Shown piece after piece: positions 14,978 through 64,000 of a stretch of DNA of 64,000 bases. Source of the stretch: Verrucomicrobiaceae bacterium. Its GTDB lineage: Bacteria > Verrucomicrobiota > Verrucomicrobiia > Verrucomicrobiales > Verrucomicrobiaceae. The number at the start of each line of letters is the position of its first letter. Position 1 is the stretch's first letter. The notes beneath the pieces are model-generated. The model was given only the letters and a program-made list of their open reading frames with translations. It was not told the DNA's origin and made no database searches. A program made the translations under genes and the position numbers. Location of the stretch: positions 1-64,000 of the forward strand of contig JAIXOU010000091.1 of NCBI GenBank assembly GCA_027486585.1, given 5' to 3'.

Positions 14978-16372
14978 TTAGACGCCCTGCGGTAGTCTGA
15001 TCCAAAAACTGGCACCGCCGCCCTCACGATTGTTGACGCCTACCGTTCCACCATGCGCTGTTGCAATAGCCCGAACAAGACTGAGTCCCAGACCAATGCC
15101 TGGATGCCTTGAATTAGCAGCACTACCGCGATTGTAACGCTCCCAGATCATGTGCACCTCCTCAGGGTGAACCCCAGGGCCGCTGTCATCCACACAAATC
15201 ACAGCACCCGTGCCTTCACCATGCCAATGCACGATGATGACACCTCCTTTTGGTGTGTAAGCCAGCGCATTATCCAAAATATTGGCCACCGCTTGGGTCA
15301 GCAACTCACGATCCACGTTGAGCATCAGATCCAGACCCGGGACAACACTCAGTTTTAATCCTCGGTCTTCAGCCGCTGGAGTAAAAAGGTCCACTAACTT
15401 TTCCAAAAGATCACTCACCGGCGTCGCCTGCCGATGCAACCGCAGCGCCCCATGATCACCACCTCGAATCGTGAGAATGGACTGCACCAACTGCGCAGCC
15501 CGATCAATCTCCTCCAAACTACGTGCAGCTGCATCTTCAGCCAAAGGGCTGTCAGTGTGATTGTGCAAAGCCTCTAAGTTTCCGCGAATACGAGCCAGAG
15601 GTGTGCGTAGTTCATGGGCCAATTGATCATTCGTGGACTGAAGCTCACGCGTCAGACTGAGGATTTGATCCAAACCCGCATTGATCACCGAAGCCAAGGT
15701 CTTTAACTCAGGAATTGCCGTTGGCGCGATGAGGCGCACCACTCCTTCTGGCAAATGCAGGCGTTTGGCACTGGCGGTGAACGCTTTGATCGGATTGATC
15801 ACGTCATAGGAATACCAAAGCACTGGCAGCATAGCCACCAATCCAGCCATGATACCGGCTAACCATAAATGATTCTGAATATTGCTAAGGTAACGCTCCG
15901 CTTCGACACTGGAACGACCAAACCAAAGGATGTTCCCATCGTGCAATCGAATGGCTCCCAGAGTGAAATGGTAAGGCGCTTCATTTAGCGTCACTTCAGA
16001 CTGGTGCGTATCTCCCCGTTTGTGCAACTCTACAGGTGACTTTTGCGGCCATGGATAATGTTGCATCGCTTCTGGAATCAACTCATACAGGATCGCACTA
16101 TTGCCATCCAAAATCCGCATCCCGTTGCTTTCGGCATGTTGCCCAGCGGGGAAAACATCCTGCACGCCATCTACCCCGGAGTGCGTATAAATGGCCGCAT
16201 ACTCCACCAAATCGTCCAAGATGATGGCCTGATCTGCCCGCCGCAGATCCTGATTCACTGCAGCTCGCACAAAAAAGATCGTCAAAGCGATACTGCTTCC
16301 AACAATCAGCCCCATGAGCAGCGACAAGCGCCACTGAGACGGCATTTTTTCAGGCCAGAGATTTAAAAACAT
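14978..16372 (-). CDS. Two-component sensor histidine kinase
   Basis: A 464-residue membrane kinase. The N-terminal transmembrane helix (LSLLMGLIVGSSIALTIFFV), a periplasmic sensor loop, a second helix (LAGIMAGLVAMLPVLWY) and a HAMP segment precede a HisKA domain with the phospho-acceptor in AHELRTPLARIRGN. The HATPase domain has the N box (AVANILDNALAYTP), G1 (DDSGPGV) and G2 (GIGLGLSLV). The ATG at 16372 is chosen because GAGGGAAGGG lies just upstream; it overlaps the response-regulator gene by 23 bases, implying coupled translation. The stop is 6 bases from the broken M42 gene on the other strand. The signal sensed is unknown. Confidence 0.93.
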   Translation of the reverse strand: MFLNLWPEKMPSQWRLSLLMGLIVGSSIALTIFFVRAAVNQDLRRADQAIILDDLVEYAAIYTHSGVDGVQDVFPAGQHAESNGMRILDGNSAILYELIPEAMQHYPWPQKSPVELHKRGDTHQSEVTLNEAPYHFTLGAIRLHDGNILWFGRSSVEAERYLSNIQNHLWLAGIMAGLVAMLPVLWYSYDVINPIKAFTASAKRLHLPEGVVRLIAPTAIPELKTLASVINAGLDQILSLTRELQSTNDQLAHELRTPLARIRGNLEALHNHTDSPLAEDAAARSLEEIDRAAQLVQSILTIRGGDHGALRLHRQATPVSDLLEKLVDLFTPAAEDRGLKLSVVPGLDLMLNVDRELLTQAVANILDNALAYTPKGGVIIVHWHGEGTGAVICVDDSGPGVHPEEVHMIWERYNRGSAANSRHPGIGLGLSLVRAIATAHGGTVGVNNREGGGASFWIRLPQGV

Positions 16373-17024
16373 AGCCCTTCCCTCGGATGGTTTCGATATG
16401 GATATCGCAGCCTGGAATTTCAAGCTTCCGGCGCAATCGGCAGATCATCGCATCCACCACATTCGTGCCGGGATCAAAGCGGATATCCCAGACCTGCTCC
16501 AAAAGGAACTGCTTCGGCATGATCCGGCCCTCATGATTCATCAGCACCTCAAGAAGCGTCCACTCACGAGGCTGCAGCTCGACCGTATCCGTGTCACTGC
16601 TGATGCGGCGCTTCACTGGATCGAGCCGGCAATGACCGATCTTCCTTTGCGTGGGTTGAGCATGCGTCGCACGCCGATGCAGTGCATCCAGGCGCGCTAG
16701 AAGCTCTTCGGCAGCGAATGGCTTCGTCAAATAGTCGTCGCCACCTGCCGCTAAGCCACGCACTCGGTCCGCAACACTGGCGCGGGCCGTCAAGAAAAGC
16801 ACAGGCATCATGAGCCCCTCGGCACGCAGATGCTCCACCAGAGAAAAGCCATCCATATCTGGCAAGCCCACATCCAAGATCGCCGCATCACACTCATGAT
16901 CCTTGAGCCATTTAATGGCCGATTTCCCTCTCTCCTCCCATTGCAAGTCATGCCCCGCATCCGCCATCCACCCGACCATCTGGCGGCCAAGTTCAGGATC
17001 ATCTTCAACGAGAAGTAGGTTCAT
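16350..17024 (-). CDS. OmpR/PhoB-family response regulator
   Basis: A 224-residue regulator. The receiver domain has acidic EDD near residue 7, the phosphorylation site in AAILDVGLPDMDG (D51), the Thr in LFLTARA and the Lys in DYLTKPFAAEEL. A C-terminal winged helix contains LQPREWTLLEVLMNHEGRI and VVDAMICRLRRKLE. It probably receives phosphate from the kinase encoded immediately downstream with an overlapping start, and acts as a DNA-binding regulator in the cytoplasm. Confidence 0.95.
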   Translation of the reverse strand: MNLLLVEDDPELGRQMVGWMADAGHDLQWEERGKSAIKWLKDHECDAAILDVGLPDMDGFSLVEHLRAEGLMMPVLFLTARASVADRVRGLAAGGDDYLTKPFAAEELLARLDALHRRATHAQPTQRKIGHCRLDPVKRRISSDTDTVELQPREWTLLEVLMNHEGRIMPKQFLLEQVWDIRFDPGTNVVDAMICRLRRKLEIPGCDIHIETIRGKGYVFKSLA

Positions 17025-17120
17025 AACATGTCACTCTAACGCAAACGGATGAGTTTAGTGAACATAAAACGTACTCGTTCCAAGCATAGAGGAACGTGCT
17101 TTAAGCGGGAAAACGAATCT

Positions 17121-18482
17121 CTAAGCCTTCACGCCCTCTTGGCGGAGGAAGTTTTCCACCCAGGTGATGTCATAGTTGCCGTTTTGGAAGTCGCCAGTGG
17201 TGAGGATTTTGCTTTGAAGAGGGATGGTGGTCTTGATGCCTTCGACCACAAACTCGCCAAGGGCACGTCGCATACGACTGATGGCGATTTCACGTGTGGC
17301 TCCTGTGACGATGAGTTTGGCGATCATCGAGTCATAGTAAGGCGGGACTTCGTAGCCTGAATAGACATGGCTATCCACGCGGACACCGCGTCCACCGGAG
17401 GTGTACCAGAGATTGATCTTCCCTGGGCTGGGGGCGAAATTACGGGCGGGGTCTTCGGCGTTGATTCGGCACTCGATGCTATGTCCGCGGGCTTGGGCCT
17501 TCAAGACGTGCTCACTGAGAGGCAGGCCAGCAGCGATGCGGATCTGCTCTTTGATGAGGTCACAGCCGTAAACTTCTTCAGTGATCGGATGCTCCACTTG
17601 GATACGGGTGTTCATCTCCATGAAGTAGAAATCCTTGCGGTTATTATCGACAAGGAACTCAATGGTGCCGCAGTTCTCATAACCGATTTCTTTGCAAAGG
17701 GCCACAGCTGCATCACCCATTTTCTTGCGCAGTTCAGGGCTCATTTTCGGACTAGGGCACTCTTCGATGATCTTCTGATTACGACGCTGCATGGAGCAGT
17801 CGCGCTCACCGAGATGGACGACATTGCCGAGGCTATCTGCCACGAGTTGAAACTCGATGTGATGCGGCTTATCGACGAGTTTTTCCATATACATGGAGCC
17901 GTCACCAAAACATTTCAGAGCTTCCATGGAAGCAGCCTGGAAACTGGAGATGAGAGTGGCCTCATTGAGCACGGGCCTCATGCCACGACCACCACCACCA
18001 GCGGTAGCCTTGATGATAACCGGGTAACCAATTTTGCGCGCCCAGTGAAGGGCCTCTTCTTCTGTATGAATGATGCCGTCTGATCCTGGTGTGATCGGCA
18101 CACCGGCCGCTAGGGCTGTGGCGCGGGCTGAGTTCTTGTCACCCATGCGGGCGATGACCGCCGAGCTCGGGCCAATGAATTTGATTTTGCACTGCTCGCA
18201 CACATCTGCGAACTCAGCTTTTTCAGAGAGGAAACCATAGCCAGGATGAATGGCGTCCACGTTAGCAATCTCAGCAGCGCTGATGATGCGGCTGATCTTC
18301 AGATAGCTCTCACTACTCGGCCCAGGTCCAATGCAGATAGCCTCGTCGGCGAGGTGAACGTGCATGGAGTCCACATCAGCCTCAGAATAAACGGCGACTG
18401 TTTTGACATCGAGTTCTTTGCAGGCTCGGATGATGCGGACGGCGATTTCACCACGATTAGCGACGAGGATTTTTTTAAACAT
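17121..18482 (-). CDS. accC: Acetyl-CoA carboxylase, biotin carboxylase subunit
   Basis: A 453-residue ATP-grasp enzyme of standard AccC length. It carboxylates biotin on AccB using bicarbonate and ATP, the first half-reaction of malonyl-CoA formation. Visible family segments: [19 protein letters not shown] at the N-terminus, [15 protein letters not shown], the ATP-binding loop [35 protein letters not shown], and [17 protein letters not shown]. It is the second gene of the accB-accC pair, with a 115-base gap holding a strong stem-loop. Confidence 0.98.
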
Positions 18483-18552
18483 GGAACGAGAGCGAGAGGA
18501 CTGAAAGCTGAGTGAATGAGGAGAGGATATGCTGACTAAAACTGGACGAATG

Positions 18553-18580
18553 GGAGAACCTGAAAAGCTTCGGGCTCTCC
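18553..18580 (-). promoter_or_regulatory. Stem-loop in the accB-accC gap
   Basis: GGAGA and TCTCC form the outer stem. After one mismatch CCTGAA pairs with TTCGGG (one G-U pair) around a 4-base loop. It lies 17 bases past the accB stop with no T run on the minus strand, so it is more likely an mRNA processing, stability or attenuation element than a terminator. Confidence 0.4.
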
Positions 18581-18597
18581 ACCTTCAAGGGTCAGTT

Positions 18598-19128
18598 CTA
18601 AGCCTTGAGCTCGAAGAGAGGCTGGCCGTATTGCACGGGCTTACCGTCTTCGACAAGCACACGGGCAATGGTGCCACGTAATTCGGCCTTGATCTCATTC
18701 ATGACCTTCATGGCCTCAATGATGCAAACATTGCTATTTTCGTCCACCGAGTCACCGATGCTAATGAATGGCTTATCAGTTGGGCTGGCGGCGCGATAGA
18801 AAGTACCCACCATCGGACTGTTGATGGTTGGACCCACTGGTTCAGCAGCAGCGGCAGGGGCCGTTGAAGCTGCTGAGGCAGCACTTGCAGGAACTGCGGC
18901 TGGTGCAGCATATGAGATCTGAGCAGGTGCGCTGGAACCCATGGGGAGGTGCTTCAGCAATTCTTTAGCAGCCTGGAAGTCGGATCCGCGGCGGAGTTCG
19001 ACTTTAGAGCTGTCGGTTTCAAAATTAAAATACGTGAGGTCGTTCTCTGCCATCAGGGTAACGATTTGTTTGATCTGCTTTAGGTCCAAAGCTGTGGCCT
19101 CCTTTTCGTTAGTTTTGTTGTCTTCCAT
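18598..19128 (-). CDS. accB: Acetyl-CoA carboxylase, biotin carboxyl carrier protein
   Basis: A 176-residue protein. It begins with a helical N-terminal region (LDLKQIKQIVTLMAENDLTYFNFET), has the usual Ala/Pro-rich linker (about 75-95), and ends with the biotinyl domain: INSPMVGTFYRAASP, the thumb region, and the biotinylation motif EAMKVMNEI with lysine at about 141. It carries biotin between AccC and the transcarboxylase AccAD, whose genes are not in this window. First gene of accBC; the 145-base AT-rich region upstream should contain its promoter. Confidence 0.97.
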   Translation of the reverse strand: MEDNKTNEKEATALDLKQIKQIVTLMAENDLTYFNFETDSSKVELRRGSDFQAAKELLKHLPMGSSAPAQISYAAPAAVPASAASAASTAPAAAAEPVGPTINSPMVGTFYRAASPTDKPFISIGDSVDENSNVCIIEAMKVMNEIKAELRGTIARVLVEDGKPVQYGQPLFELKA

Positions 19129-19273
19129 GCTGGGTCTGTGGGTGCATTTAGCACCTCCAGCCTAGCGGCTCTGCTTTGGCTGGCAAGGCCAAATACCGCC
19201 CCAAAAAGTGCTCAAATGAACAAAAAAACAGCAAAAGTCCGTTCAATTCAATCAAACCACTGTTCTTTTCAAA

Positions 19274-19957
19274 TTATTCAAACCGATACCCTGCTCCGTG
19301 CACAGTGCGAATAATGCAGGGATTGGCGGCATCTTTTTCGATCCTTTTTCGGAGTTGGGAAATATGCTGATCCAAAGCGCGACTCTCTGGGAAGTAGTCC
19401 ACGCCCCAGACTTCGTCCGCTAACATGTTACGATCCACGACCTTACCCCGGCGCTCATAAAGAAGACGTAGCACCTTTAAATCACGGGGGCTGAGGGGTA
19501 ACTCAACCGAGTCACGATAGGCGCGTAACTCGGCTGGAACGATGCGGAGATCGTCCATGAAGAAGTCTGCTTCTGTCGGTTTAGCACCAGGTCGGGCGGC
19601 CGTGCGGCGCATGATGGCCCGGATGCGCGCCGTGATCTCTTTGACCCCGAAAGGCTTGGTCATGTAATCGTCAGCTCCCAGTTCCAAGCCAAGGACAGCA
19701 TCTATCTCCTCAGCTTTGGCCGTGAGAAACAGAATTGGCACATACTCATCGAGACGCCGAATCTGTTTGCAGGCCTCGTAGCCGTTTTGGCCAGGCATCA
19801 TGACATCTAGGCAGACAAAGTCGGGCTTTGAAACACGGAAAAAGTCCACGGCTTGCAGTCCATCACTGGCTGTCATGACCTCGTAACCCTCCATGCTCAG
19901 GACTTCACGCAGGGCTTCACGAGTATGGTCGTCGTCTTCAGCTATGAGGATTTTCAT
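19274..19957 (-). CDS. OmpR/PhoB-family response regulator
   Basis: A 227-residue regulator with a receiver domain (acidic EDDD near 7-10, phospho-acceptor D51 in FVCLDVMMPGQNGYE, ILFLTAKAEEID, DDYMTKPFGVKEI) and a winged-helix DNA-binding domain (LSPRDLKVLRLLYERRGKVV, RALDQHISQLRKRIE). It overlaps the stop of the upstream histidine kinase gene by 4 bases (ATGA), so the two are translationally coupled partners. Confidence 0.95.
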   Translation of the reverse strand: MKILIAEDDDHTREALREVLSMEGYEVMTASDGLQAVDFFRVSKPDFVCLDVMMPGQNGYEACKQIRRLDEYVPILFLTAKAEEIDAVLGLELGADDYMTKPFGVKEITARIRAIMRRTAARPGAKPTEADFFMDDLRIVPAELRAYRDSVELPLSPRDLKVLRLLYERRGKVVDRNMLADEVWGVDYFPESRALDQHISQLRKRIEKDAANPCIIRTVHGAGYRFE

Positions 19958-21624
19958 GATAATGGGGTTAGGTTAAGTGGAAGTATGAGGATGAAACGTG
20001 CGCCTTCTTTAAACTGCGAACAAACTGCAAGACTGCCGCCGTGCAAGTTAGCCAGTTCACGGGAAATGGTTAAACCAATGCCTGTGCCACTGACACCCTC
20101 ATTAAGGTCAGAACGCAGCCGCTCAAAAGGTTCAAAGACACTGTGGCGCTTTGCCGCAGGGATGCCAGGACCATGATCCTCGACGATGATTCGGGCCTCT
20201 TTATCAGAGGTCTCGGTGCGGATACTGACCCACTTGCCGTAGGCGGCATATTTATCCACGTTGCTTAGCAGATTCCCAAGAATTTGTTCCACCGCATCCG
20301 AGTCTGCTTTCATCTCGGCAGGCCCTTTAAATAAAGCTTCGACCGTGTAGTCCTTGCCTTCTAAAATAGGGCGCCAATTACTCACCACACGACCAACTAG
20401 CTCATCTAGATCTAGCGGACGTGGCTGCACGCTGAGCTTATCGCGCTGCTGACGTGCGTAATTCAGCACGTTCTGAATCAGGCGATCTAAGCGCGCTGTT
20501 TCTGTCTCCACCACACCGAGGTGACGCAGGGTAATGGCATCCCCGGTCTGCTCAATTCGGTGACTGGCCATTTCTGCATACAGGCGAATGTTTGTCAGCG
20601 GTGTCTTCAGCTCATGCGAGATCTGATTGACGAAACTGACACGCTGCTCTGCCACACGGATCTCACGCGCATTTTCTCGGAAGAATGTCCAAGCCAAGGC
20701 TAAAACAAGAATACAGCCGGAACCAACACCCAACATGATTGGGAAAAGGAACGGTTCTGGAAACTCAGTATCTGCTGGAGTGTAAGAGATCACCCATTGA
20801 GAGAGAGGCGCTGAGCACAACTGAGACGCTGTGTACTGGGAAGTTAAGGCAGACTGTTGATTGCCCCATTGATGCAAAGGAATGCCTGACACACTGCTCA
20901 ATGACAGACGCCCGGGATAGGATCTCATACCCTCAATAGGAACGCGCTTGAAAATGGCTTCGCAGAGAGCCGTGCCATCAATGCGTGCACAGATGAGATC
21001 CTCATCCATTTTCCTCCAATAGATGAAATCTCCATCCGTCACGTGCCAGCCACTCGGAAACATGGCATTTCCACCGGGCGTACCATCACTCTCCAAATGA
21101 TAGTTATCTGACTTCACAACCGTCAGCCATTTAGTCTTTCGAGTCTGGCCGGGGACACTGGCGGGAGGACTCCCCAGTAAAACAAAGGGTTGCGGTGTAA
21201 TAGATGCAAAGGGCTCATGGATTCCGCTCAACTGTAAAATCTCACGAATGGCAGCCGATCTTGTTTGTGCGCTTGCTGATTCGGTCGGGGAGACGAGTTT
21301 CTTATCCTTCAGATTGGCCACCTCGCCATTGGCATTCACGGTCCAGCTTTCGGTGACCCAAGGATGCTGTGAGAGCTTCTCTGCCATGCCTGCACCTGCG
21401 GTCTCCTCAGCAGCCCGAATCATATCTAACTCGTCCGTAAACTGACGTAAATCGTTGGTTAGCTGGTGATCTGCCACCAACAATCTTTCTTCCAAAACAG
21501 ATTCTCTTGCTTGCTCAGTGCTGCGGGCAGCGTCTCGGATCAAATACGTTCCCAACCACGTCAGAAGCGCCACTGGCGTGACGACTAGCAGAAGGAGAAG
21601 AAGGTTGGATCGGCGAGGTTTCAT
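19954..21624 (-). CDS. Two-component sensor histidine kinase with large periplasmic domain
   Basis: A 556-residue membrane kinase. One N-terminal helix (NLLLLLLVVTPVALLTWLG), a periplasmic region of about 260 residues with no family I recognise, a second helix (FLFPIMLGVGSGCILVLALAW), then HisKA with the acceptor in QISHELKTPLTNIRLYAEM and HATPase with the N box (ILGNLLSNVDKYA), VEDHGPGIP and GTGIGLTISREL. It is transcribed ahead of its regulator, the reverse order of the other two-component pair in this window. Two inverted repeats precede the start (21629-21651 and 21667-21687). Confidence 0.93.
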   Translation of the reverse strand: MKPRRSNLLLLLLVVTPVALLTWLGTYLIRDAARSTEQARESVLEERLLVADHQLTNDLRQFTDELDMIRAAEETAGAGMAEKLSQHPWVTESWTVNANGEVANLKDKKLVSPTESASAQTRSAAIREILQLSGIHEPFASITPQPFVLLGSPPASVPGQTRKTKWLTVVKSDNYHLESDGTPGGNAMFPSGWHVTDGDFIYWRKMDEDLICARIDGTALCEAIFKRVPIEGMRSYPGRLSLSSVSGIPLHQWGNQQSALTSQYTASQLCSAPLSQWVISYTPADTEFPEPFLFPIMLGVGSGCILVLALAWTFFRENAREIRVAEQRVSFVNQISHELKTPLTNIRLYAEMASHRIEQTGDAITLRHLGVVETETARLDRLIQNVLNYARQQRDKLSVQPRPLDLDELVGRVVSNWRPILEGKDYTVEALFKGPAEMKADSDAVEQILGNLLSNVDKYAAYGKWVSIRTETSDKEARIIVEDHGPGIPAAKRHSVFEPFERLRSDLNEGVSGTGIGLTISRELANLHGGSLAVCSQFKEGARFILILPLNLTPLS

Positions 21625-21628
21625 TTAA

Positions 21629-21651
21629 ATGAGGTCCTAAAATAACCTCAT
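21629..21651. promoter_or_regulatory. 7-bp inverted repeat just upstream of the kinase start
   Basis: ATGAGGT and ACCTCAT flank a 9-base spacer, 4 bases upstream of the histidine kinase ATG. On the minus strand the second arm runs into the only purine-rich stretch (AGGACC), so the hairpin could hide the ribosome-binding site, or the repeat could be an operator. Confidence 0.35.
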
Positions 21652-21666
21652 CAATGGGACTTAGCA

Positions 21667-21687
21667 TTAAAATTATCATAATTTTAA
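21667..21687. promoter_or_regulatory. AT-rich perfect inverted repeat (10+1+10) upstream of the kinase-regulator operon
   Basis: TTAAAATTAT and ATAATTTTAA are perfect complements separated by a single C, centred about 53 bases upstream of the kinase start. The position suits an operator overlapping the promoter. OmpR-family regulators usually use direct repeats, so a different regulator is possible. Confidence 0.45.
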
Positions 21688-21742
21688 GGATTGCGTGAAT
21701 ATTTTGGGGGCGAAAGTCGCTCCTTTCCCACCTCAAATAGAA

Positions 21743-21774
21743 AAAGGGCCTCGCTGGTGAAAGCGAGACCCTTT
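21743..21774 (-). terminator. Rho-independent terminator of the tgt-yajC-secDF operon
   Basis: AAAGGG and CTCGCT pair with AGCGAG and CCCTTT around a 6-base loop with one internal mismatch. Read on the minus strand the stem is followed by TTTTTCTATTT. It sits 26 bases past the secDF stop. Confidence 0.85.
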
Positions 21775-21799
21775 GGAATCTTAAAACTGGACTTGCAGA

Positions 21800-24196
21800 T
21801 TAAACAGTCTTGGCAGCAGCCACGGCTGCAGCGGCTTTTTGAGCCTGCTCGTGGGTGTCCAACACTTTGCGCTTAAGGCTCTGACCAGTCTTCGTGGCAT
21901 ACCAGAGGACGAGAGGGCTGGCGATGAAGATGGAGGAATAAGTCCCCAAAATCACCCCAATCGTGATCGGCACGGCAAACTCAAGCATGGCTGGATTACC
22001 CAGGAAGAGAAGGACAATCATCGGAGCCAGAGCGGTCGGACCGGTGAGGAGCGTACGGCTAAGGGTCTTGCAGATAGCCTCATTCATCAAATCACGGATC
22101 GATCCAGAACCACCACGCTGGATGGTTTCACGAATACGGTCAAAAACGACGATGGTGTCATTGATGGAGTAACCAGCAATGGTCAGCATGGCACCCACGT
22201 GAATGAGGCTCAGTTCCTGACCAAAGAGGACGCAAAGTCCAGGAACCATGAGCACGTCATGTCCGAGAGCGACAACAGCACCGAGAGCAAAGGCAAATTC
22301 GTAACGGATGAGGAGGTAGAAGAAGATGAAGACAAGGGCGACGGCGAGAGCGATGAGGGAAGTCTTTGCGGATTCTGTCCCAATGACGGCACCGACACGT
22401 TCAGTCTGACTGCCTTGGATAGCGTCAGCGAATTTGCCTTTGATGGCTTGTTCGATGGTTGGCCCCGCATCGAATTCCGTGCGGATGGCGATCACGTCAC
22501 CACCTGTTGCATTGCCTTTACGCTGTGGGTAGTAGCTGCCGATTGGCTGGCCATTGTCGAGCTTCAAACCCTTGAGGAGTGCATCCAGATCAGCATCGGC
22601 GATGTTCTTACCCTCTTTTAATTCGACATGGACGAGACCACCACCACGGAAGTCGATGCCAAAGCTTGCGCCACCTTTGTAGGCGAGTGTGGCAAAGGAG
22701 ATCGCCGTGACGACGAGTGAGGCAATGATGAAGGTCGGGGCTTTAGCAAGAATATCAAAGATTCGGTCCGAGATGATCTTGGTGCTGCTGACTTTAGTGA
22801 GGATGCCTTTGTCGATCACCCACATGAAGATGACACGTGTCACGATCAGCGCGCCAATCATGGAGGAGACCAGACCCATCATCAGTGTGATGGCAAAGCC
22901 CTTTACCAGACCACCAGAGATGACGAAGAGGATGATGGCTGAAATAAGCGTCGTGATGTTAGAGTCAGCGATGGCGGAAAAAGCCTTATCGTAAGCAGCT
23001 TCTAGAGCACCAGCGAGAGTGCGGCCAGCTTCCATTTCCTCACGCAGACGTTCGTAGATCAGCACGTTCGCATCCACAGCCATACCGATGGTGAGCACGA
23101 TACCGGCAATACCAGGCATGGTAAGTGTGAACTGGAAGAGTGCCATGCCACCAAAGAGAATGGCTAAGTTGATCACCAGACCGACGATGGCGATGAGGCC
23201 TGCTAGACGGTAGATAGCAAGCATGAAGAGTGTAGTCATGGCCAGACCAGCGATGCCGACCCACTTACCCTGATTGATGGAGGACTCACCGTAGGAAGCT
23301 GACACGGAGCTTTCCGAAAGGATCTTCATGGGGTTTTCCAGTGGATTTTCCAGGAGAGTAGCCAACTGGAACGCGCTCTGCTGATTGAAGTTACCGGAGA
23401 TCACGGCAGTGCCGCCGAAGTGGTCAGTCTGAAGTGTCGGAGCAGAAATGATCTCGCCATCGACGATGACCGCCAACTGACGGCCTTTATTGACAGAGGC
23501 GATGTCATCAAAAAGCTTGGAACCTTCGCTATCGAGATTGAGGTAAACCTTCCAGCCTTCAGCATCGGTATTGGCAAAAGCGCTGGCCACATACTTGCCT
23601 TCCATGTCTGGGCGATTGCGAGCCAGCTCACTGCCACGATTTGGGAGTTCCTTGCCTTCTTTGTCTTTTTCAGCTTTGTATTTGAATTCTTCCCAACCTG
23701 GCTCCTTCACTCCGCCATTGGCTTTGATTTCAGCAAGCTTGGATTGGCTGCTTTCATGCACAATGCGGAATTCAAGATGAGCGACTTGTTGAATCTTGGT
23801 GCGAACTTCAGCGAACTCTTCGGCCTTCACACCTGGCATCTGAACTAGGATACGGTCAGTTCCCTGTGGCTGCATGGTCAGGTCCTTCGTGCCTTCTGGG
23901 TTGAGACGCTTTTCAAGAATGCCTATGGCTTGCTGGACAGACTCTGTGGTCACGTCCTTCACCGCACCTTCAGAGGTTTTACCCTTTTGAAGTTCCACGA
24001 CGAACTCACTGCCACCCTTCAAGTCAATTCCCAGTGGAATCCCCATATTCCTAAAGGTGATCACCGCAAAGGCGGTCATCAGGAAGATAAGAGCTGTGCC
24101 GATGAGGCGCTTGCTCTTATGCACCACGGTGCCGATGTAAAACAGAAGCATCAGCAGGATGGCTGAGCCGATCAGGAAGGTGACGATTGGGGACAT
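21800..24196 (-). CDS. secDF: Protein translocase subunit SecDF (fused SecD and SecF)
   Basis: A 798-residue fusion, as found in several phyla in place of separate SecD and SecF. The SecD half has the first membrane helix, then GIDLKGGSEFVVEL, the large periplasmic P1 region, a helix bundle with PGIAGIVLTIGMAVDANVLIYERLREE, and LVKGFAITLMMGLVSSM. The SecF half begins with FGIDFRGGGLVHVEL and contains TIAGYSINDTIVVFDRIRE and LTGPTALAPMIVLLFLG. SecDF uses the proton-motive force to help pull secreted proteins across the inner membrane. It ends with an Ala-rich tail. Third gene of tgt-yajC-secDF, followed by a clear terminator. Confidence 0.97.
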   Translation of the reverse strand: MSPIVTFLIGSAILLMLLFYIGTVVHKSKRLIGTALIFLMTAFAVITFRNMGIPLGIDLKGGSEFVVELQKGKTSEGAVKDVTTESVQQAIGILEKRLNPEGTKDLTMQPQGTDRILVQMPGVKAEEFAEVRTKIQQVAHLEFRIVHESSQSKLAEIKANGGVKEPGWEEFKYKAEKDKEGKELPNRGSELARNRPDMEGKYVASAFANTDAEGWKVYLNLDSEGSKLFDDIASVNKGRQLAVIVDGEIISAPTLQTDHFGGTAVISGNFNQQSAFQLATLLENPLENPMKILSESSVSASYGESSINQGKWVGIAGLAMTTLFMLAIYRLAGLIAIVGLVINLAILFGGMALFQFTLTMPGIAGIVLTIGMAVDANVLIYERLREEMEAGRTLAGALEAAYDKAFSAIADSNITTLISAIILFVISGGLVKGFAITLMMGLVSSMIGALIVTRVIFMWVIDKGILTKVSSTKIISDRIFDILAKAPTFIIASLVVTAISFATLAYKGGASFGIDFRGGGLVHVELKEGKNIADADLDALLKGLKLDNGQPIGSYYPQRKGNATGGDVIAIRTEFDAGPTIEQAIKGKFADAIQGSQTERVGAVIGTESAKTSLIALAVALVFIFFYLLIRYEFAFALGAVVALGHDVLMVPGLCVLFGQELSLIHVGAMLTIAGYSINDTIVVFDRIRETIQRGGSGSIRDLMNEAICKTLSRTLLTGPTALAPMIVLLFLGNPAMLEFAVPITIGVILGTYSSIFIASPLVLWYATKTGQSLKRKVLDTHEQAQKAAAAVAAAKTV

Positions 24197-59020: not shown

Positions 59021-59812
59021 TTAGCGAGCTGCCAGAGGAGCAGGCGCTGCACTCTTGGCTGCGGCACTGTTAGATTGTTCCTTAGACCATTCGTCAAATT
59101 CAGCGGTCTCAACGACTTCAAGCACGGCCTTCATCTGCGCATGACCTGGACCGCAAAGCTGACCACAAATGATGTCCCAACTACCTGTCTTCACCGGCTT
59201 AAACCACATATGAGCTTTGACGCCAGGGCAGGCATCCTGAGCGGCACGCATAGGCACCAGAGCCAGGTTATGAATCACGTCCTTGCTAGTGACATCAATG
59301 ATGACAGGACGACCAAGTGGCAACTTCATCGTCCCAGGATTCACAAAATCATCTTTACCATTAGGGTCTGTGAGTTCACGCCCCGTTTGATTGGCTTGAG
59401 AGATCGCCCTCGGATCCCAAGTGCTGAGCATCTTATCGTTGCCCGAGTATTGGAAGTTCCAGAGAAACTTCTCACCCATGGCACGAATCTTTACGGTATC
59501 AGGACCGGTTGGGAATTCATCAGCTTGATGATGCCAAAGAGGGAAAGCGAAACCAAGAAGCAAAATGGCTTCCACAATACAAACACCGATTTCGATGTGC
59601 GTCGTGGCATGACCACGAACACCGTGGTAGTCGGCTTTAGCATTCTTAGAGGCACGGAACTTATAAAAAGCGATAGCCAAGAAAGTGGACCAACCGATAA
59701 AAAGAACCAGCATGAACCAATGAACAAAACCAAGCATGTGGTCCACAAGACCTCCATGCTCTGAAGCGTTCTGCGTCATGCCAAGCCAAACGTTGATGTC
59801 TGAAATACTCAT
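59021..59812 (-). CDS. coxB: Cytochrome c oxidase subunit II (CuA subunit)
   Basis: A 263-residue protein with two transmembrane helices (GFVHWFMLVLFIGWSTFLAIAFY and HIEIGVCIVEAILLLGFAFPLW) and a periplasmic cupredoxin domain. CuA ligands are visible: H181 in SKDVIHNLALVPM, then C216, C220, H224 and M227 in ICGQLCGPGHAQM. The residue between the cysteines that usually reads Glu (CxELC) is Gln here (Q218). An Ala/Pro-rich tail ends the protein. The ATG at 59812 is chosen because it leaves a 34-base gap to the small gene upstream; the start at 59860 would overlap it. It is the last gene of the cox transcript, not the first as is more common. Confidence 0.94.
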   Translation of the reverse strand: MSISDINVWLGMTQNASEHGGLVDHMLGFVHWFMLVLFIGWSTFLAIAFYKFRASKNAKADYHGVRGHATTHIEIGVCIVEAILLLGFAFPLWHHQADEFPTGPDTVKIRAMGEKFLWNFQYSGNDKMLSTWDPRAISQANQTGRELTDPNGKDDFVNPGTMKLPLGRPVIIDVTSKDVIHNLALVPMRAAQDACPGVKAHMWFKPVKTGSWDIICGQLCGPGHAQMKAVLEVVETAEFDEWSKEQSNSAAAKSAAPAPLAAR

Positions 59813-59846
59813 GGGTAAATAAGGAGGGGGCGGAGGATAAAAAAAG

Positions 59847-60020
59847 TTAAGCGGTAACAACAGCTCTTTGTTGTTTGCGGACGAAGTTCCAGACGATCAA
59901 TCCGACGAAGCTCATGCCAAGCGCTAGAAACGCGAGCATCACCAAGACGGCAATGTCTTGCGCCTGAGCGATGACACTGTTTGGATCAGCTTTGCAAGTT
60001 GCGCAGGCGAGAGTCAGCAT
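59847..60020 (-). CDS. 57-residue single-helix membrane protein in the cox cluster
   Basis: A short open frame (ATG 60020, TAA 59847) that encodes MLTLACATCKADPNSVI... followed by one hydrophobic helix (AVLVMLAFLALGMSFVGLIVW) and a basic tail (NFVRKQQR). It fits exactly between the neighbouring genes on the same strand without overlap. The N-terminal CATC pair might bind metal or be oxidised. No family is recognised; a small oxidase subunit or assembly factor is plausible from location. Confidence 0.65.
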   Translation of the reverse strand: MLTLACATCKADPNSVIAQAQDIAVLVMLAFLALGMSFVGLIVWNFVRKQQRAVVTA

Positions 60021-60287: not shown

Positions 60288-60632
60288 CTATTCCTGAACC
60301 TCAACAACAGCAGTTGGATTCTCAAAGCCTTCATCAATGAGGCCTTCAGAATTGCTGAGGTAGAAGAGAACAAACAAAGCAATGGCAAACGCAGCCGTAA
60401 AAGCGAGCACCTTGTAAACCAGAGCTTTCTCGTGATTTAAATGCATGAAAATTAAAGCAACCAAGGCTGCCTTAATCGTCGCCAAAAACATGCCGACCAT
60501 CATATTCAAACTATGCGTCGGAAGCTCCACATACGAGAGACCTACAGTAAGAACGGTGAAAACAGCGAGCACCAAGCCGATCAACTTGATCTTCCGGATG
60601 GATTTGTAAATTTCTTCAGGGCTATCAGCCAT
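60288..60632 (-). CDS. Cytochrome c oxidase subunit IV (prokaryotic type)
   Basis: A 114-residue protein with three hydrophobic helices (IGLVLAVFTVLTVGLSYVELP, LNMMVGMFLATIKAALVALIFMHLNHEK, VLAFTAAFAIALFVLFYLS). The second-helix segment MFLATIKAALVALIFMHLNHEK is the hallmark of the COX4_pro/CyoD-like family. It lies directly after subunit III in the operon. It is a small structural subunit of the oxidase. Confidence 0.9.
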   Translation of the reverse strand: MADSPEEIYKSIRKIKLIGLVLAVFTVLTVGLSYVELPTHSLNMMVGMFLATIKAALVALIFMHLNHEKALVYKVLAFTAAFAIALFVLFYLSNSEGLIDEGFENPTAVVEVQE

Positions 60633-60656: not shown

Positions 60657-62048
60657 TTAAAGGAGATACAAGAGAGGGAAAAGGAAGATCCAGACCAGAT
60701 CCACGAAATGCCAGAAGAGGCCACCGACTTCGACGCGGTTAGCCATATGTTCAGGGTCCTCCCGTAAGCGGCGACCATCGCAGACGAGGAAATAAGTGAG
60801 CACCAGTGCGCCTGCGATAACATGCAGACCATGCAGACCAGTGAGGGTGAAATAGATAGCGTAGTAGCTATTCAACTTCGGCGTGAAGTTAGAGAAGAAC
60901 TGTACGTCCTTACGCTCCAGTTTCACTTCAGGATGATGACCTGCATGAGTTGCGCCATGGTCTTCAGCAGGTGCATGAGCTTCAGATTTGTGAGCGCCGC
61001 CTTCTTCGGCATGAGCTTCCGGTGTGGCAGAGTGGATGTGAACGTAGAAGAGTTTCTTCTGCTGGGTTGCGCTCTTTTTAGGATCACGAGAAGTGCCACC
61101 TTTACCGTCATCAAACTCTTTTTTGAATTCAGCAATGGCTTCGTCGCGCTGATGGATGAAAGCATTCTTCCAAGCCGTGCCAAGGTAATGCTCGTTAAAG
61201 GCCAATGACTTCTCTTTGTCAGGCGTGCCTCGAACATCCAAACCATCAACTTCGAGGGTCATCTTATCGTTGATGATTTTGCCTTCGACTGAAGTTCCAT
61301 CACGGAAGGTGAACGATTTGGCGTCAAGGGCGGGACGAGCTAAGAACTTGGACATTGGAACCGAGAAGGTCATCGGTGTCGCAGCAACGAGCTTAATCGT
61401 GGTGGAAGGCAGTTCTTTAGGATTGCTGGCCTTAGCTTTTGCGGCAGTGAGCACTTCTGCTTTAAGGGCAGCAAAGCTCTCTTTGTTCAATTCGATCTCA
61501 GCACCCGCTTCCGTTTTGAACTTCGGTGCCGTTCCTTTGAGGTAAGGCAGCACGTATCCAACAGGATCAGCATCCACAGCGGATGTCTTACCAGAGATCG
61601 TCATGCTGAGTTCTTTGACATCACCAAATTCAATCTCAAAACCGTGCGGCAAGTGACCTGTGAGAATCGTGCCGTCCGTGAGAGTCACCGAGTAATGCTC
61701 AAATTTGGCTTTATACTCAAAGCTCTTGATGACCATGAAGGTCATGGCACAAGCGATGGTGATGGCCATATAAACTTTGTAGGCTCCGAATTTACGCAGC
61801 TTGATGGAGGCCCAAGCAAGTAACACAGTGACGGAAGAACCAATGAGAACCAGTGTATTGATAAATCCAAGGGTCACATTCAATTCATGAACTGGCCATG
61901 GATAGTCCGCACCGACGCGCAGGAAAATGTAGGAAGAGAAAAGGCCACCGAAGAGCATGACCTCAGAGGCGAGGAAAAGCCAGATGCCGACCTTGGCGTT
62001 GTACAAGCCCGTATCGGGGCGGGCGGAGACTGTATAAGGAATGTCCAT
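60657..62048 (-). CDS. coxC: Cytochrome c oxidase subunit III with a large soluble insertion
   Basis: A 463-residue protein; five-helix bacterial subunit III is usually about 200 residues. Normal parts: helix 1 (KVGIWLFLASEVMLFGGLFSSYIFLR), helices 2-3 up to IKSFEYK (113), then helices 4-5 beginning NSYYAIYFTLTGLHGLHVIAGALV (393) and FWHFVDLVWIFLFPLLYLL. Between residues about 118 and 390 an inserted soluble region carries two similar strands (LTDGTILTGHLPHGFEI and FRDGTSVEGKIINDKMTL) and ends in a His-rich stretch (nine His between 337 and 372). The insertion lies in one inter-helix loop and cannot be assigned a known fold. It follows subunit I by 41 bases. Confidence 0.9.
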   Translation of the reverse strand: MDIPYTVSARPDTGLYNAKVGIWLFLASEVMLFGGLFSSYIFLRVGADYPWPVHELNVTLGFINTLVLIGSSVTVLLAWASIKLRKFGAYKVYMAITIACAMTFMVIKSFEYKAKFEHYSVTLTDGTILTGHLPHGFEIEFGDVKELSMTISGKTSAVDADPVGYVLPYLKGTAPKFKTEAGAEIELNKESFAALKAEVLTAAKAKASNPKELPSTTIKLVAATPMTFSVPMSKFLARPALDAKSFTFRDGTSVEGKIINDKMTLEVDGLDVRGTPDKEKSLAFNEHYLGTAWKNAFIHQRDEAIAEFKKEFDDGKGGTSRDPKKSATQQKKLFYVHIHSATPEAHAEEGGAHKSEAHAPAEDHGATHAGHHPEVKLERKDVQFFSNFTPKLNSYYAIYFTLTGLHGLHVIAGALVLTYFLVCDGRRLREDPEHMANRVEVGGLFWHFVDLVWIFLFPLLYLL

Positions 62049-62089: not shown

Positions 62090-64000
62090 TCAATGATGAG
62101 CGGCAACAACGGGTGCTGGTGCTGCCGACGGCTCTGCGCGCTTGCCGGGCTCAGATTCCCACTGCGGGAAGAAGTCCTGGTCCATGCCTGGAACGCTATA
62201 CTCGTAGGGTCCACGAACGACAACTGGCTCAAAGTCAAAGTTGCCGTGTGGAGGTGGCGTCGGAGCGGCCCACTCCAGAGTCGTTGCGCCCCAAGGATTG
62301 TCGTTTTCGACCTTCTTACCACCTTTGATGCTGAGGAAGAAATTCAAAATGAAAGGAACCTGACCCAGAGCCAGAACGAATGCCCCAACAGACATGAGAA
62401 CATTGAGACCCAAAAGGTTGTTCGGGACATCCATGCCAAAAAGACCAAAGAAGCCTGAGTTCAGTTCAGTAAACCAGTTGGAGGCACTCGAAGTCTGCTC
62501 AAAGTATTTACCACCATCATACCAACGGCGATGGAAGCCGCCCATGCCCTGAATGAACATCGGCGCAAAGATCATGTTCATGCCAAGCAATGAAGGCCAG
62601 AAATGAAGTTTACCCAGGAAGTCATTCATGATGCGACCAGTTGCTTTTGGATACCAATGATAAACACCAGCAAACAGACCAAAGATCGTACCAGGAGCCA
62701 CCACATAATGGAAGTGACCAATCACGTAGTAGGTATCATGCAGAGCAAGGTCGATGAAAGTGAAGGCCAAAGGTAAACCCGTGAGACCACCAATCCCAAA
62801 CATCGGCAAGAATGCAGAAGCGAACAACATCTGAGGCGTAAACCGGATGGAACCACCCCAGAGAGAAATCATCAAACCCGTAAGTAGAATCACGGAAGGA
62901 ACCGAGATCAGAACGGTGGTGATCTGGAAATAAGTGGACATCATGGTGCCCATGCCAGTCAGATACATATGATGAGCCCAGACGAGGAAGCTGAGGAAAC
63001 CGAGAGTCAATGCAGCATAAACCATGGCTTTGTAGCCCCACAGAGGACGGCGCGTATTGGCAGGAATGACTTCTGTCAGGATGGCGAAGGCTGGAAGGAT
63101 CAAAACATACACCTCAGGGTGAGCCAAGAACCAGAACAAGTGCTGATAAAGTAGCGGACTACCACCACCAGCAATATCGAGATGCTGGCCACCTTCCATC
63201 AGGCCAGTCGGCAAGAAGAAGCTAGCACCAAACACACGATCCATAAGCTGCAACAAGGCCGCGACTTCAAGAGGAGGGAAAGCCAAGAGAAGCAAGAAAG
63301 AAACAATAAACATCGCCCAGCAGAAAAATGGCATGCGCATCCAGGTCATCCCCTTGGCCCGAAGATTGATGACGGTCGTAATGACGTTCACCGAGCCTAG
63401 AAGCGAGGCAGAAATATTGAAGACCATGGCGAGCAACCACCAAGTGTGCCCGTGCATCCATACATTGGTCACAGCCAGACCTGTCGTTGAAGCCAGCGGC
63501 GAATACATCGTCCAACCGGTTTGAACGGAACCTGTTCCGAGGAAGAAACTAGCGAACATCATGACGCCGCTGATAAAGAAAAGCCAGTAACTCCACATGT
63601 TGAGACGCGGGAAAGCCATATCAATGGTGCCTATTTGAAGCGGCATGACAAAATTCACAAATCCAGCAAAACCAAGTGGCACGATACCCAGGAACACCAT
63701 GATCGTTCCGTGCATAGCGCCGAGCATGTTGTAAAGCTCACCATTGACGACACCACCAGGAGCCCAGCGCCCAATCATTTCCTGGAACAAATCACCAATG
63801 ATAGGAAGGCTGGTGACAAAACCGAATCCTGGAATTGGCTGACCTGGGTAAGCGATACTCCAGCGCATGAGCATCATCAGGAAAAAGCCGAGAAGAAGGA
63901 AAAGCAGACCACTGACTGCGTACTGAATACCGATGACCTTGTGATCGGTGGACCAAATATACTTCTTTATGAAGCTCAGTTCATGGTGGTCATGGCCGTG
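62090..64000 (-). CDS. coxA: Cytochrome c oxidase subunit I (5' end outside window)
   Basis: At least 636 residues. The frame continues without a stop from the ATG at 63877 to the window edge and includes HHELSFIKKYIWSTDHKVIGIQYAV, the conserved subunit I N-terminus, so the true start lies beyond 64000. Twelve transmembrane helices are expected and visible in outline. Key segments are MHGTIMVFLG, the heme-a ligand region, HPEVYVLILPAF (CuB His and Tyr cross-link region), SHHMY-like WAHHMYLTGM, and HDTYYVIGHFHYVVAPG with heme a3 ligands. It forms the heme a/a3-CuB reaction centre and is first of the visible cox genes, followed by III, IV, two small genes and II. Confidence 0.97.
   Translation of the reverse strand, partial: HGHDHHELSFIKKYIWSTDHKVIGIQYAVSGLLFLLLGFFLMMLMRWSIAYPGQPIPGFGFVTSLPIIGDLFQEMIGRWAPGGVVNGELYNMLGAMHGTIMVFLGIVPLGFAGFVNFVMPLQIGTIDMAFPRLNMWSYWLFFISGVMMFASFFLGTGSVQTGWTMYSPLASTTGLAVTNVWMHGHTWWLLAMVFNISASLLGSVNVITTVINLRAKGMTWMRMPFFCWAMFIVSFLLLLAFPPLEVAALLQLMDRVFGASFFLPTGLMEGGQHLDIAGGGSPLLYQHLFWFLAHPEVYVLILPAFAILTEVIPANTRRPLWGYKAMVYAALTLGFLSFLVWAHHMYLTGMGTMMSTYFQITTVLISVPSVILLTGLMISLWGGSIRFTPQMLFASAFLPMFGIGGLTGLPLAFTFIDLALHDTYYVIGHFHYVVAPGTIFGLFAGVYHWYPKATGRIMNDFLGKLHFWPSLLGMNMIFAPMFIQGMGGFHRRWYDGGKYFEQTSSASNWFTELNSGFFGLFGMDVPNNLLGLNVLMSVGAFVLALGQVPFILNFFLSIKGGKKVENDNPWGATTLEWAAPTPPPHGNFDFEPVVVRGPYEYSVPGMDQDFFPQWESEPGKRAEPSAAPAPVVAAHH

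Follow-up and report, generated by a model that had tools for sequence, protein, structure and literature searches.

The window, a stretch of 64,000 nucleotides from a Verrucomicrobiaceae bacterium, carries the whole gene of a five-helix (CtaE/CoxC type) cytochrome c oxidase subunit III (COX3) of 463 amino acids (aa) at 60657-62048 on the minus strand, and the coordinates, strand and length given for it in a preliminary description of this DNA were correct. The gene is encoded with COX1 (62090-64000, extending beyond the window end), COX4, the prokaryotic subunit IV (60288-60632), and COX2, the CuA subunit (59021-59860), which matched subunit-II-type models only and no cytochrome c model; these genes and the parts of COX3 described below lie on the minus strand. 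The COX3 protein matched the PF00510 COX3 family with 61.5 bits (curated cut-off 23.8) in two stretches, the best at residues 387-461, and the best PDB match was the mycobacterial chain 6adq_G for the single sequence and the Thermus I+III fusion 2yev_A for the profile of the order. The AlphaFold2 model contained five long helices that aligned to helices III-VII of seven-helix COX3, as in actinobacterial and Flavobacterium oxidases, whose five-helix COX3 (CtaE/CoxC) likewise has helices III-VII only. Transmembrane helices 1-3 (III-V) occupy residues 15-117 (61698-62006), and helices 4-5 (VI-VII) occupy residues 394-463 (60660-60869).

Between helices 3 and 4 lies an inserted domain of residues 118-393 (60870-61697). 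The helix V-VI loop is short in usual COX3 (a feature that does not define the family) and has about 275 extra residues here. The best stretches shared with PDB COX3 chains covered residues 9-119 or 384-463 of the window protein and positions 7-120 or 397-472 of the order profile, always flanking the insertion and never inside it, so about 275 residues of the protein are extra. None of the listed PDB COX3 chains (184-382 aa, the I+III fusion aside) had a match in the inserted region, and the earlier suggestion of a soluble insertion foreign to usual subunit III therefore held.

The insertion is supported as a domain predicted to fold within the helix 3-4 loop, with a mean pLDDT of 82.4 for the AlphaFold2 model of the full-length protein and of 89.8 (pTM 0.82) for the insertion modelled alone. 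It begins with repeat 1 (residues 118-151; 61596-61697), which carries a DGT...GH motif and is modelled as three strands at 119-123, 128-132 and 138-151. Residues 152-242 (61323-61595) follow, with a pair of helices and, at 216-231, a long strand. Repeat 2 (residues 243-275; 61224-61322) carries a DGT...GK motif and again three modelled strands (245-248, 253-260 and 262-271). Helices separate these groups of strands; residues 290-334 (61047-61181) contain predicted helices at 291-312 and 327-334, followed by a nine-histidine stretch (residues 337-372; 60933-61040), and the closing strands, modelled at 374-378 and 382-387, complete the domain (residues 374-387; 60888-60929).

The two DGT...G-type repeats noticed at first sight are homologous, as judged by hhalign profile comparison, which matched repeat 1 (113-160) to repeat 2 (236-283) at 93.8-94.8%, with E 5e-8 to 1.7e-7 for one comparison, and longer pieces at 81% (E 1e-5), against 0.5% for a control of repeat 1 with the middle segment. 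Duplication of a complete five-strand barrel was unsupported, with strands 208-240 and 365-393 matching at only 4.8%, and the repeated unit comprises about 30 residues, nothing larger being claimed. Across 70 sequences of the order, H118, D125 and P390 of the insertion were invariant, and L123, G131, G182, D250, G256, D271 and F384 were kept in at least 90%. A CxxCH motif was absent from 70/70 of these proteins, which speaks against a c-type cytochrome fusion, and the two Cys residues of the window protein lie outside the insertion.

The sample comprised 56 genomes near the window genome, its own included. A match was found in 48, with 47 complete copies and one ending at a contig end; the eight genomes lacking a subunit III match included every sampled genome of one genus (six). 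The complete copies had open frames of 453-568 aa and proteins of 435-550 aa. All counts on order loci given below rest on 80 named loci, the best of 573 and hence a biased set, whose 79 uncut proteins measured 422-552 aa, the one at L099 being 100% identical to the window protein. Their records are titled, for example, Verrucomicrobiaceae, Prosthecobacter, Verrucomicrobium, Haloferula, Luteolibacter and Persicirhabdus (metagenome titles may err), and the genera named belong to Verrucomicrobiales, so from the record titles we infer that the coded order of the genome searches, the window's own, is Verrucomicrobiales.

A frame error had been named as one case that would undo the insertion, and it was ruled out by the 47 complete copies, every one with the insertion, among the 56 genomes, together with low dN/dS. 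In the three least diverged pairs, with dS <1 in the insertion (L110-L111, L113-L134 and L106-L107), dN/dS was 0.040-0.058 for the folded insertion, 0.00-0.02 for the helices and 0.085-0.12 for the His-rich stretch. For the insertion it reached 0.25 in L108-L110 (dS 1.1) and 0.15 in L115-L112 (dS 1.6), and several other pairs were saturated. The insertion thus evolves faster than the helices, with a mean column identity of 21%. This fast evolution, the wide variation in length and two mid-size expansions elsewhere in the class would suit a tolerated, drifting loop expansion with no partner; such drift is nevertheless the least credible of the explanations considered, given the low dN/dS in the three unsaturated pairs, the retention in 47/47 complete copies and the confident fold prediction.

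Loops between helices 3 and 4 differed widely in size among relatives. In a 72-row tree, they measured 16 residues (4 rows), 30-52 (8 rows, from other classes), 73-121 (23 rows), 141-209 (5 rows) and 256-410 (32 rows), and seven rows read later had loops of 16 (four), 65, 71 and 101. The 32 large-loop rows, all from the window's order, formed one group with SH-aLRT 94, and ten large-loop rows received 99/95 support in a 53-row tree. The mid-size expansions L082/L083 and L084/L085 fell apart from the large-loop group in the 72-row tree. Insert-free rows were basal in this quick tree, and the base was unresolved in the careful 53-row tree. Most class relatives extracted had a loop of 65-121 aa, and among the measured rows the 256-410 aa form was restricted to the window's order. 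A survey of other carriers, proposed at the outset, thus found the large form in this order only and a smaller form common in the class.

What the smaller domain shares with the insertion is repeat 1 together with the closing strands. A profile built from 30 small loops, taken from 33 proteins of 240-300 aa (three were missed by the pattern), matched repeat 1 at 97% (E 1e-10) and the closing strands at 95% (E 2e-8), gave a weak match to repeat 2 (16%) and had no match to residues 152-242. The small loop domain of class relatives has one DG-type motif in 65-121 aa, with no repeat 2 or helical part seen. On the strength of the profile matches, it is supported that the order insertion incorporates, in sequence, the smaller beta domain (repeat 1 and closing strands) common in the class. 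It is likewise supported that in the window's order the domain gained another DGT repeat, helices and a His-rich linker predicted to be mostly disordered, making the loop about 135-340 residues longer than the small loops. The other subunits were nearly alike in length, with median COX1, COX2 and COX4 of 638, 263 and 113 aa in the order loci and 610, 255.5 and 114 aa in 15 small-loop class loci (some genes were not found in every locus), and they therefore lack growth comparable to the insertion.

Searches with the insertion alone, as had been advised, revealed no relative in PDB, Pfam or Foldseek, and no solved structure or profile was found for it in the searches made. The single sequence had no relative among PDB sequences at E up to 10; its profile gave ten rows at E >=0.12, ribosomal L30/L7 and ClpB, which were judged chance, and in Pfam DUF6982 (insertion, E 0.15) and ROF (one small loop, E 0.19) were both below the cut-offs. 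Neither the insertion nor the full model had a Foldseek row at E 0.001 or better; for the full model the first 39 rows, at E 0.005-0.6, belonged to COX3 chains or to the I+III fusion. In the structural comparison, a possible likeness to Sm/SH3-like small beta barrels came from the two best rows, 5zwn_b, an Sm protein (model range 1-276; Z 4.4, 74 aligned, 3.3 A), and 6j6g_z (model range 4-279; Z 4.0, 78 aligned, 3.6 A); at Z <8 this likeness may be merely a common arrangement, and no sequence relation to such barrels was found in the PDB sequence and Pfam searches. When 19 order genomes were searched for copies of the insertion elsewhere, the only extra rows lay at E 0.003-0.013, one each in ten genomes, and were set aside as ClpB-like, a likeness judged from three of the ten. 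Viral contigs contained no relative. Among plasmid records, 128 matched, none covering 80% of the query, and the planctomycete check comprised three plasmid records only, with COX3 matches of 621-642 bases that are too short for the insertion. A search of open-licence papers found none describing this insertion, an absence that is no proof. PMC3444138 describes a 2-aa insert in cbb3 subunit 1, and also a 1-aa deletion, neither of which is the COX3 insertion.

In COX3 topology, the loop between these helices lies on the periplasmic side. From the alignment with helices III-VII, the insertion would accordingly face the periplasm. Three K/R residues are present in each of the helix 2-3 and 4-5 loops and none in the helix 1-2 loop, a distribution that fits the positive-inside rule; the insertion itself holds 35 K/R and 39 D/E and is too long for this rule.

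The grouping of nine histidines ahead of helix 4 was confirmed at residues 337-372, and the metal binding that had been proposed for the insertion was weakened. If the segment bound Cu or Zn, it could store metal or act as a chaperone in the assembly of CuA/CuB, in keeping with nine histidines within 36 residues, with the presence of at least six in 42/70 order sequences (aligned stretch 335-393) and with SCO, CtaA-like and UbiA-family genes close by. However, pLDDT fell below 50 at residues 347-369, most of the stretch, in the full model and nearly the same in the insertion-alone model. The best-kept histidine of 337-372 was present in only 34/70 sequences, 13/70 had two or fewer in the aligned stretch, and the COX1 start and the CcoN-like end are His-rich as well. 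With the stretch mostly predicted disordered and its histidines poorly conserved, metal binding is unlikely as the main role of the insertion, and a store or chaperone function is very improbable. H118 (61695-61697) was kept in 70/70 order sequences and H132 (61653-61655) in 53/70, and in 12 aligned small loops the H118 equivalent was invariant and the H132 equivalent was kept in at least 90%. If a metal site exists, the putative H118/H132 pair would be a better candidate than the His-rich linker. The start of COX1 (L079 91-2040), beyond the window end, is a His-Asp-rich stretch that reads HDHSHDHGHDHH.

The order of the whole cluster is ActE-ActF-CcoN/O/P-like-COX1-COX3-COX4-COX2. Past COX1 the contig continues with genes for a cupredoxin-like protein and for CcoP-, CcoO- and CcoN-like proteins, then a 129-aa open reading frame, ActF and ActE, and COX4-COX2 are followed by CtaA-like, UbiA-family (CtaB-like), SCO and DUF420 genes. 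ActE and ActF belong to alternative complex III (ACIII). The ACIII genes are divided between contigs of the draft genome: C1 holds ActABCD (L204, about 16030-22206), and C7 holds ActE-ActF together with the oxidase. ActB matched the PDB chains 6f0k_B at 8e-214 and 6btm_B at 7e-135, and ActE and ActF also matched ACIII subunits in the PDB; ActA (five CxxCH), ActC and ActD were named from sequence and gene order alone. Of the 80 named order loci, 61 have 7 kb or more of sequence ahead of COX3, and ActE, ActF and the CcoN-like gene were upstream in 61/61 of these; the remaining 19 contigs begin within 5.6 kb of COX3. Outside the order, ActE/F were near COX3 in four of the first 20 loci (L181, L182, L197 and L199), a set that includes L184, with too little upstream sequence, and L200, with another COX3 type, and in 5/9 further loci.

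The CcoN-like protein (495 aa; contig C7 66328-67815, minus strand; L079 4329-5816) is encoded between ActF and COX1, and its gene was matched in 69/80 order loci. The CcoN-like protein of the window genome has FTNAWYGFQIVSVYG in place of the HYTDWTIGHVHAG of the best PDB CcoN chain. Since haem ligands are thereby missing, the CcoN-like protein is probably not a working oxidase.

The Flavobacterium johnsoniae ACIII-aa3 supercomplex (6BTM) is a close point of comparison. Its ActB, ActE and ActF also occur here, and ActE/ActF are clustered with the oxidase; unlike that system, the putative supercomplex here has ActABCD on another contig, a CcoN/O/P-like set in between and an extra subunit III domain. 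According to the review PMC8361435, subunit III contacts complex III or ACIII in the mycobacterial and Flavobacterium supercomplexes, and in the F. johnsoniae ACIII-oxidase structure these contacts run via the five-helix subunit III. A second review, PMC8498564, places ACIII genes immediately next to cbb3 genes in verrucomicrobial methanotrophs. Docking or clamping towards ACIII or its cytochromes is therefore the best reading of the domain, and we tentatively favour, at somewhat under an even chance, a docking or clamping module for an ACIII-aa3 supercomplex. The domain would mediate protein-protein docking where the aa3 oxidase meets ACIII. It would keep ACIII or its c-type cytochromes (ActE, ActA), and perhaps also the cluster's CcoO/CcoP-like cytochromes, close to the CuA of subunit II, and electrons would then pass within a supercomplex. 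Donor docking and supercomplex stabilisation had both been suggested earlier; the ActE-ActF neighbourhood, the role of subunit III in the review and the co-occurrence with ACIII favour them, and none of these proves them. The frequent separation of ActE/F from COX3 outside the order and the fast evolution of the insertion count against ACIII docking.

The domain could instead dock a soluble periplasmic donor, either cytochrome c or the cluster's cupredoxin-like protein, rather than ACIII. This is rather improbable. It would agree with the periplasmic side assigned above, with a COX2 that matched no cytochrome c model, and with CcoP-like genes in 70/80 and a cupredoxin-like gene in 15/80 named order loci (tblastn). 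CuA and the usual donor site, however, sit on subunit II, whose length is hardly altered.

Co-occurrence with ActF was compared over 49 rows with a measured loop and a known ActF state. ActF was present in 38/41 insert-bearing and 1/8 insert-free rows; the rows are not random, seven having been added for lacking ActF or the insertion, and G104, whose ActF match was weak (1.4e-7), was counted as lacking it. With just three changes of the insert trait across the tree, an independent-pairs test is unable to reach significance, and the co-occurrence is a lead and no proof. In a class sample, 12/12 order genomes with this COX3 had ActF (E 4e-118 or better), and among the 20 genomes listed for genus g2, all without this COX3, no ActF match was better than 7e-21. 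ActF was not found in three insert-bearing genomes (94, 89 and 74% complete), and one insert-free genome has it. Genome G030 carries a second oxidase cluster (L205, contig C26) with ActE/ActF relatives and a COX3 frame of 218 aa without the insertion, so ACIII linkage does not require the domain.

These exceptions bear on an internal clamp, by which the domain would pack on the periplasmic faces of subunits I/II and stabilise or assemble aa3 with no outside partner. The three insert-bearing genomes in which ActF was not found point this way, as do the small form in clusters without ActE/F nearby and the few insertion residues kept in at least 90% of the 70 sequences, as expected for a scaffold without an active site. 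Against them, two insert-free loci of the same lineage (L189 and L190) retain the COX1-COX3-COX4-COX2 order, so the enzyme needs no clamp in general, and ActF is absent from seven of the eight insert-free rows. On balance a purely internal clamp seems unlikely, though it deserves serious consideration.

Docking towards ACIII, the preferred reading, can be extended. The domain might form the hub of a three-part assembly encoded in one cluster, comprising ACIII, a degenerate CcoN with CcoO/CcoP-like cytochromes that serve as an electron relay rather than an oxidase, and aa3. The growth of the domain in Verrucomicrobiales would then show when the assembly became obligate. This extension is speculative and unlikely.

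Haem-copper oxidases have a conserved core to which subunit III belongs, and an insertion this large was absent from the solved chains searched. Among living relatives of the enzyme the loop measures 16, 65-121 or 256-410 residues. If it is true that the domain ties the oxidase to ACIII, its presence in a genome would mark direct coupling of the two complexes, and it would offer a way to test how such supercomplexes evolve without cytochrome bc1.

Insert state was taken from rows with measured loops, and genome G064 shows that open-frame length misleads. Its COX3 (L232) has no helix 3-4 insertion and carries an extra stretch between helices 4 and 5 instead.
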